Assembly (NCBI GenBank): GCA_018673485.1
Contig: JABHCP010000019.1
Location: 1 to 47,691, forward strand
Direction of reading: 5' to 3'
DNA from: Candidatus Uhrbacteria bacterium
GTDB lineage: Bacteria; Patescibacteriota; Patescibacteriia; UBA9934
DNA: 47,691 nucleotides
Shown: positions 26,965 through 39,440 of the stretch, in pieces
Layout: the number at the start of each line of letters is the position of its first letter
Position numbering within the stretch: the stretch's first letter is position 1
Notes under the pieces: generated by a model
Told to the model about the DNA's origin: nothing
Databases searched by the model: none
The model's input: the letters and a program-made list of their open reading frames with translations, nothing else
Position numbers and translations under genes: made by a program

Positions 26965-27092
26965 AATACACGCGCTCAACGTAAACTTTACGCTTTATCT
27001 ACAACCTAAACTCGTGTTCGGTATTTGTTCCTGTTAATAACAAATGAATTTTATGTCCAACATCCGATGTCGGACACCAGTTATCCACAAAA

Positions 27093-27128
27093 GTTTCACA
27101 TATGCGACGATCGTCGAATAAGTGAAAC
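27093..27128. promoter_or_regulatory. 36-bp nested dyad
   Basis: GTTTCAC-ATATG-CGACGATCGTCG-AATAA-GTGAAAC, both arm pairs share one symmetry axis. Confidence 0.7.
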
Positions 27129-27181
27129 CTTTTAGCAACGCAATCGATCATATACGCAAAACAAAGTATAATGTGAACAAT

Positions 27182-33860: not shown

Positions 33861-33996
33861 ATGGCCGCCAGGCAATTTTACTTAATTCCCATTTCGAACA
33901 AAGAGAGAAATCTTCTCGTTTCGATCGAACTCAGAAGATCTCTCCTGGACGTCGAGATGGTGAACTATTATTTCACTTTCATTTGTGAGTTAATAG

Positions 33997-38160: not shown

Positions 38161-38865
38161 ATGAATATTATTCAAACAATTCAAAAAGAGCTCAAAAGAC
38201 AAGCTGATCCAACAGTCAAAAAGAGCGCTCTGCGCTGGTTTAAAGAACCAATCAAACTTTACGGCGTTAAAACCCCTGAGGTTCGACGCATGTCCCAAGA
38301 ATTCTACCGTGAAGTTCAGGACCTATCTAAAAACGAGCTTTTTGATATTTGTGAGAAGCTTATGCAATCGGGAATGCAAGAGGAATTTGTAATTGCATCA
38401 GCCTGGGCGTTTCGTAGACGCAAGGAATTTAATGAAACAGACTTCGATCGATTTGAGGCTTGGGTCGATCAATACGTCTCAAACTGGGCAATGTGTGATG
38501 ACTTTTGCACAAAGTCACTTGGATATCTATTACTAGACTTCCCTGCCCTTGTTCCAAAAATTAAACTCTGGACCAAGTCAAAAAATCAATGGGTTCAGCG
38601 CGCCTGCACGGTTAGCTTAATCATTCCAGTTCGAAACAAACAAAATATCGACGATGTATTCGATGTAGCCTTCGATCTCCTCGAGTGCCCAGAAGACATG
38701 GTTCAAAAAGGCTACGGCTGGATGCTCAAAGAAGCCACCAAGCATTATCAAGATGAGGTATTCAAATTCGTTATGAAGTATAAATCTCACATGCCAAGAA
38801 CGGCACTTCGATACGCAATCGAGAAAATGCCCAAACGATTAAAAAAGGACACCATGATTAAATAA
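38161..38865 (+). CDS. DNA alkylation repair (AlkD-like) HEAT-repeat protein
   Basis: KLYGVKTPEVRRMSQEFYRE, WVDQYVSNWAMCDDFCTK, MVQKGYGWMLKEA. Confidence 0.88.
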   Translation: MNIIQTIQKELKRQADPTVKKSALRWFKEPIKLYGVKTPEVRRMSQEFYREVQDLSKNELFDICEKLMQSGMQEEFVIASAWAFRRRKEFNETDFDRFEAWVDQYVSNWAMCDDFCTKSLGYLLLDFPALVPKIKLWTKSKNQWVQRACTVSLIIPVRNKQNIDDVFDVAFDLLECPEDMVQKGYGWMLKEATKHYQDEVFKFVMKYKSHMPRTALRYAIEKMPKRLKKDTMIK

Positions 38866-38917
38866 GTATAAATTCAGCACTAAGTGTACGATCGTACACT
38901 TAGTGCTGAATTTATAC
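38866..38917. repeat. Perfect 52-bp palindrome
   Basis: GTATAAATTCAGCACTAAGTGTACGA|TCGTACACTTAGTGCTGAATTTATAC, no spacer or mismatch, directly after stop codon of 38161..38865. Confidence 0.95.
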
Positions 38918-38949: not shown

Positions 38950-38980
38950 AAAAAGAACCAGCGCAAGCTGGCTCTTTTAA
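38950..38980. terminator. Terminator AAAAGAaCCAGCgcaaGCTGGcTCTTTT
   Basis: hairpin with A/T flanks. Confidence 0.65.
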
Positions 38981-39002: not shown

Positions 39003-39440
39003 TTAGGTCCAAGATAAAATCTCCTTAGCAATCTCGGGCTTATCCGCAAACTCCTCGTTGACAATTCTTCTCGCTTCTTTGATAGCTAATTTAAAATCTT
39101 CATCAATCCATCCGGGATAATTCCGACCAACCCCACCTTGATCTCGATTCTCTCCCAAAAGACGTAAAGATGCAAGCGCCTCTTGAAATACTCCAATCTG
39201 AGAACGAAGCGATCTAAGCTCTTCTGTACTTGGGTCTTCAACGATGAGCTCTCTAACTAACTTCGCGCGCAAGTTGAGCCAATCCTCCATTCTCTTACGC
39301 TTTTCAGGAGTAAGAACATGCTCAGACTCAGCTTCCACATGGTCAGTCTCATCTGTAGTACCTGAATCAATCTCTTTATTCGTTTTTGTAGCCTCTTCAG
39401 CTATTATACCTTTTTGCCCTATTCCTATTTCTAATTTCAT
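39003..39440 (-). CDS. Hypothetical protein, tandem partner of 39444..39764
   Basis: 145 aa; NYPGWIDEDFKLAIKEA. Confidence 0.65.
   Translation of the reverse strand: MKLEIGIGQKGIIAEEATKTNKEIDSGTTDETDHVEAESEHVLTPEKRKRMEDWLNLRAKLVRELIVEDPSTEELRSLRSQIGVFQEALASLRLLGENRDQGGVGRNYPGWIDEDFKLAIKEARRIVNEEFADKPEIAKEILSWT

Follow-up and report, generated by a model that had tools for sequence, protein, structure and literature searches.

The 47,691-nucleotide stretch of Candidatus Uhrbacteria DNA that was analyzed (the window) carries a 52-bp perfect reverse-complement palindrome at positions 38866 to 38917, which has no loop and whose symmetry ends at 52 bp. As a first-pass annotation had claimed, the palindrome starts directly 3' of the TAA of an AlkD-like open reading frame (38161 to 38865) and has no T-tract. 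The same annotation had placed a conventional terminator 30 bp further on; a short hairpin is indeed found there, although at a distance of ~40 bp. The features of the locus and its family are the following.

38866..38917, no strand: 52-bp palindrome, longest of the CGATCG-centered family; half = GTATAAATTCAG-CACTAAG-TGTA-CGA
38889..38894, no strand: CGATCG center of the 52-bp palindrome, common to the family in this genome and to most gene-flanking palindromes in the order
27089..27132, no strand: second family member in the window, imperfect; GTTTCACATATGCGACGA / TCGTCGAATAAGTGAAAC
38161..38865, + strand: AlkD-like gene (DNA_alkylation, PF08713), neighbor only
39003..39440, - strand: hypothetical gene, convergent, on the other side of the 52-bp palindrome, neighbor only
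38958..38971, no strand: ordinary terminator-like hairpin between the two convergent genes, neighbor only

The chance expectation for such a palindrome in the window is ~1.5e-11, and the runner-up among loopless palindromes there is only 20 bp long. Folded as a hairpin, the palindrome scores -48.9 kcal/mol for 116 nt (z = -10.4). We found no evidence for a functional tie between it and the AlkD-like gene. The order kinase, AlkD, MscS-like, TsaB-like is retained in a congeneric genome, G001, in which the palindrome is absent from the same locus. As a separate observation, the AlkD ortholog of this congener (L015:2764-3681, G001:C11) has an in-frame insertion of ~27 codons that consists of a palindromic repeat (CCCCTCCTCCTTAGCACAAGGCTACGGAGGAC...CCCCTCCTTGGAAAAGGAGGGG) and is reminiscent of Rickettsia palindromic elements.

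A family of CGATCG-centered palindromes

The first-pass annotation had proposed looking for single arms of the palindrome elsewhere. The exact arm has no second locus in the window's genome (G000), and exact-arm searches of the genome, the congener and viral contigs returned only this locus or chance matches, whereas ~62 related palindromes are present in G000. Scanning the essentially complete sequence of this genome (1.03 Mb, a draft assembly of 21 contigs) identified ~63 loopless palindromes centered on CGATCG, the majority of them perfect and 28 to 52 bp in length and about a dozen scoring weakly. According to a simple ORF-based gene call, 61 of the 63 are intergenic. Among the 456 CGATCG sites in the genome, 52 were well paired, compared with a mean of 0.6 (maximum, 5) when the arms were re-paired at random. 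Since few long palindromes occur at other centers, the CGATCG center is a real property of the family.

The half-site common to the family is TTTCA[C/T]....G...CGA in a fixed register, with the CA at positions 14-13 from the center being near-invariant; the intervening bases vary among copies but are symmetric within each copy. The window copy, which carries CACTAAG in the common register, has the loopless CGATCG center, the CA at 14-13 and the intergenic position that define the family. Palindromes in G000 occur in clusters of two or three, and a composite of three is found at two loci in opposite orientations. They prefer convergent intergenic regions (21/56, P = 0.008), while divergent regions hold 10 copies. 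The sequence flanking the 63 copies is heterogeneous, and identical 40-bp copies are present at unlinked loci. When Rfam was searched at the gathering score, only tRNAs were matched, and the palindrome had no match.

Two other repeats were observed in the course of this work. An imperfect dispersed repeat that is also CGATCG centered (AGAAATCTTCT...TTCGATCGAACTCA.AAGATCTCTC) is found at 33904 to 33944 of the window, near 16341 of L023 and near 13947 of L069. A separate small palindrome family (L037:2285, L062:10320 and L059:7742) comprises three copies of CTGTGGATAGAGGTTcAACCTCTATCCACAG or of a version of it with matched changes in the two arms.

Gene-specific partnership between a Cas2/PaaX-like protein and its palindromes

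In G000 as well as in G001, one gene of ~175 codons is bracketed by CGATCG palindromes. Its product and homologs (~180 amino acids) combine an N-terminal winged helix with a Cas2-like (PaaX_M) domain: PaaX_M was matched by all 36 aligned homologs, CRISPR_Cas2 by 12 and Y1_Tnp by none. The cas2 profile score of the partner protein is just above the cutoff, and its score against the full-length PaaX model is 14.6, relative to a cutoff of 264.55. AlphaFold2 predicted a winged-helix-like N-terminal half, partly at low confidence, and a ferredoxin-like C-terminal half (pLDDT, 83.6). Among the closest solved folds returned by Foldseek were PaaX of E. coli (probability, 0.98) and Cas2 of Streptococcus pyogenes (0.96 to 1.00); every E value was >0.001. 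No His or Tyr is invariant among the homologs. An invariant Asp aligns near the start of the Cas2 profile; the conserved Asp of Cas2 lies near the start of that protein.

The partner protein resembles the Cas2 of CRISPR-Cas systems in its ferredoxin-like fold and in the position of this Asp but differs in its added winged helix, in a genome that lacks Cas1 and in having palindromes in place of CRISPR arrays. Cas1 (PF01867) had no match in the G000 genome, while the same search was positive in 9 of 14 controls. Since there is no Cas1 in the genome, the system is not one of CRISPR adaptation. We know of no transposase or recombinase motif for the Cas2-like fold outside Cas1-Cas2.

Three partner genes are present in G000; they are ~40% identical, and each abuts palindromes. 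Homologs were found in 33 of 73 genomes of the order and in 121 of 380 genomes of a phylum sample, with up to at least nine matches per genome. Across three congeners, the position of the partner gene is constant. Around 50 homolog loci in the order, 39 loopless palindromes lie 60 bp or less from a gene end (6.7 per kb), relative to 3 in the outer 126 kb (~0.02 per kb), and 36 of the 39 are centered on CGATCG, CGGCCG or CGTACG. The same arrangement was seen at 16 of the 28 genes examined in the phylum sample, where the centers are CGGCCG, CGATCG, TACGTA and CTATAG. When order and phylum are combined, 55 of 82 homologs have a loopless palindrome at most 60 bp from a gene end and 27 do not; the 3' end carries one in 43 genes and the 5' end in 33. 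All seven genomes of the order that match the strict palindrome pattern carry partner homologs, one of them a weak match (hypergeometric P of ~0.003). In a consensus scan of the genome collection, true palindromes were confined to a single genome, JAHJAM (Patescibacteria); the matches in the other genomes were nonpalindromic.

The arms of these palindromes are specific to the gene that they flank. At the 21 two-ended genes, the 5' palindrome agrees with its 3' counterpart at 13.2 of 15 half-arm positions, in comparison with 6.5 of 15 between genes (0/5,000 permutations). Arm similarity rises with protein identity, including below 60% identity (Mantel r = 0.25; 0/2,000 permutations). On average, dispersed copies in all five genomes compared are most like the gene-flanking palindromes of their own genome; in G001 and G021, however, the own gene flanks are the best match for only about half of the single copies. 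Identical copies occur at unlinked loci in three congeners (13, 9 and 2), and genome G222 has eight exact 26-bp copies, two of which flank the partner gene. These data show a partnership between protein and palindrome that is gene specific.

Two further perfect palindromes were noted elsewhere. One of 38 bp (ATAAAACACCCTAGGTCAATTGACCTAGGGTGTTTTAT) lies at L013:234-271 (G010:C93), in a genome in which no Cas2-like homolog was found, and one of 54 bp (TTTTTGTACACTTGCGCCCCGCGGCATATGCCGCGGGGCGCAAGTGTACAAAAA) lies at L104:7566-7619 in an uncultured member of the Clostridia, an unrelated phylum (CANRIY010000019.1).

Comparison with known palindrome systems

REPtrons consist of REP elements and REP-associated tyrosine transposases (RAYTs) (PMC2817692, PMC3733652). 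The present system resembles them in having a stationary gene between cognate palindromes, intergenic dispersal, clusters and coevolution, and its palindromes likewise prefer 3' or downstream and convergent positions. Near-identical palindromes flank both ends of 21 genes, although not all homologs are two ended, and dispersed copies match and coevolve with their own gene, with the reservation given above for G001 and G021. In contrast to REPtrons, the protein pairs a winged helix with a Cas2-like domain and has neither a Y1_Tnp match nor an invariant His or Tyr, and the palindromes are loopless, usually perfect and centered on CG-NN-CG. No Y1 (HUH) tyrosine transposase was detected among the 36 homologs, and no GTAG or CGTC tag was found at the hairpin foot among the 63 copies. 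Given that both the transposase and the tags are absent, the system is not a REPtron, although its mode of action may be similar.

A Y1 transposase was also considered as the partner and rejected, as the Y1_Tnp genes of the genome lie elsewhere and have no CGATCG palindromes. Two of these four genes (L176:1218-1988, G000:C14, and L178:1297-2115, G000:C15) have two-sided hairpins of their own, of the AAGGTTGAACCTTTAAAGGTTCAACCTT; GGGCTTAGCC type, and are apparently ordinary RAYT-REP systems that exist beside the Cas2-like one.

Like MITEs and Rickettsia palindromic elements, the family consists of short dispersed palindromic repeats, but its center is conserved, it is almost never found within genes, and it is tied to one gene family; known families of these elements have conserved outer ends. 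Three other candidates were rejected. parS was considered for the TGTTTCAC half-site, and parS proper (TGTTTCACGTGAAACA) was found separately in a relative; integron attC sites were set aside because there is no cassette array and there are ~63 sites genome-wide; and protelomerase targets differ in anatomy and, again, in the number of sites.

Dispersal, regulation and other explanations

Since G000 and G001 have 1 of 14 palindrome sites in common, which is about the chance level, and one G030 site is absent from G031, the sites turn over. Five other G030 sites are found at orthologous places in G031, almost unchanged, within regions that are 71 to 80% identical; one of these copies is asymmetric and is retained in the two species with flanks that are >25% different. 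The five conserved sites are compatible both with binding sites under selection and with insertions that have persisted for a long time. Neither a target-site duplication nor a clean empty site was seen, and the intergenic DNA is too diverged for exact empty-site comparison. Arm changes are symmetric, with one-sided intermediates (AACTCCC/GGTAGT) between two perfect forms.

The explanation that we cautiously favor is that the window palindrome is one of the ~63 dispersed extragenic palindromes that have a partner Cas2-like gene, whose protein recognizes and disperses the family. Recognition of the palindrome by the Cas2/PaaX-like protein is strongly implied, and we infer that the protein also spreads it. 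A protein dimer probably recognizes the palindrome, with its winged helices on the TTTCAC half-sites ~12 to 17 bp off center and the Cas2-like pair over the CG-NN-CG center. Following recognition, the protein may copy or insert short palindromes into intergenic DNA, by analogy with the action of RAYTs on REPs, and perfect arms would result if what moves were a hairpin in its folded form or a complex with two-fold symmetry. The window copy would then be one such dispersed insertion, which lies 3' of AlkD and would play no part in its function. Points that weigh against this explanation are the failure to see a target-site duplication or a clean empty site, a fold with no known transposase or recombinase motif outside Cas1-Cas2, the five sites conserved in G030 and G031, the incomplete matching of single copies in G001 and G021, the 27 homologs with no palindrome nearby and the high Foldseek E values. 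The inverted-repeat element remnant proposed in the first-pass annotation holds insofar as a dispersed palindrome family tied to a Cas2-like gene is present, but the palindrome is not what is left of an insertion sequence. A role as a resolution or recombination site, also raised there, is conceivable.

A less probable but serious alternative is that no palindromes move and that the protein acts as a regulator of the PaaX type or as a nucleoid-associated protein. The palindromes would then be operators of its own gene together with dispersed selected sites, which arise and decay by mutation. The PaaX_M and winged-helix architecture is consistent with this idea, as is the conservation of five sites, one of them asymmetric, in G030 and G031. 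E. coli PaaX binds the spaced half-sites TGATTC(N27)GAATCA and acts as a repressor at its own promoter (PMC9493321), and the comparable half-sites make it plausible that a PaaX-like dimer binds TTTCAC(N22)GTGAAA. While the protein shares with the PaaX family the Cas2-like PaaX_M domain, the N-terminal winged-helix half and two spaced DNA half-sites (PMC9493321; PDB 8a39), it lacks the C-terminal PaaX region (~180 versus ~300 amino acids), and its sites lie on either side of the gene and dispersed, mostly off promoters. Palindromes are at least as common 3' as 5' of the gene (43 versus 33 of 82), dispersed sites are enriched in convergent, promoterless regions (P = 0.008), and the site positions in G000 and G001 are mostly different, all of which argue against this alternative. 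Identical unlinked copies of 26 to 40 bp and symmetric arm drift would also be hard to obtain through selection on single sites.

A function in transcription termination or 3' mRNA stabilization, with a merely incidental link to the Cas2-like gene, is improbable. The hairpin is very stable, so that the strong 3' stabilizer suggested in the first-pass annotation is physically possible; positions just 3' of stop codons are frequent, convergent regions are enriched, and some G222 copies are in terminator-like contexts with T runs. Nevertheless, the window copy lacks a T tract and adjoins an ordinary terminator, 10 copies lie in divergent regions, and this reading leaves unexplained both the fixed center and half-sites and the >100-fold excess of palindromes, with arms specific to each gene, around a single gene family.

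We regard as still more doubtful the proposal that template switching during replication (quasi-palindrome correction) mainly makes and maintains the palindromes with no dedicated protein. Although symmetric arm changes and one-sided intermediates are what it would produce, the persistence of an asymmetric copy in two species weakens it as a sole cause, and it does not account for the common center, the dispersal or the gene association. Finally, an assembly fold-back, which was raised in the first-pass annotation and to which a draft assembly of 21 contigs might seem prone, can practically be dismissed, because the flanks beyond 52 bp are unique rather than mirror images, the flanking gene order is kept in G001 without the palindrome, and palindromes built in the same way are present by the dozen in this and other independent assemblies.

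Taken together, these data point to a phylum-wide Cas2/PaaX-like protein with its own palindromes as an apparently undescribed system that resembles REP elements; our literature search, which had subscription papers and preprints outside its scope, found no description of such a protein-palindrome system. More tentatively, a Cas1-less, Cas2-fold winged-helix family that is widespread in Patescibacteria may mobilize its own perfect palindromes, making it a REPtron-like selfish system that has no HUH transposase.

The main point lies outside positions 38866 to 38917, in this phylum-wide pairing, through which an annotated but unexplained PaaX_M/Cas2-like family gains a precise DNA partner that makes its function directly testable. 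If the proteins only bind the palindromes, they would be unusual phylum-wide regulators or chromosome organizers with coevolving sites. If mobilization is true, a Cas2-type protein would act on DNA outside CRISPR adaptation, and the spread of palindromes by such a protein would mean that REP-like repeats can arise by a route that does not involve HUH enzymes, which would bear on the origin of the CRISPR Cas2 module.
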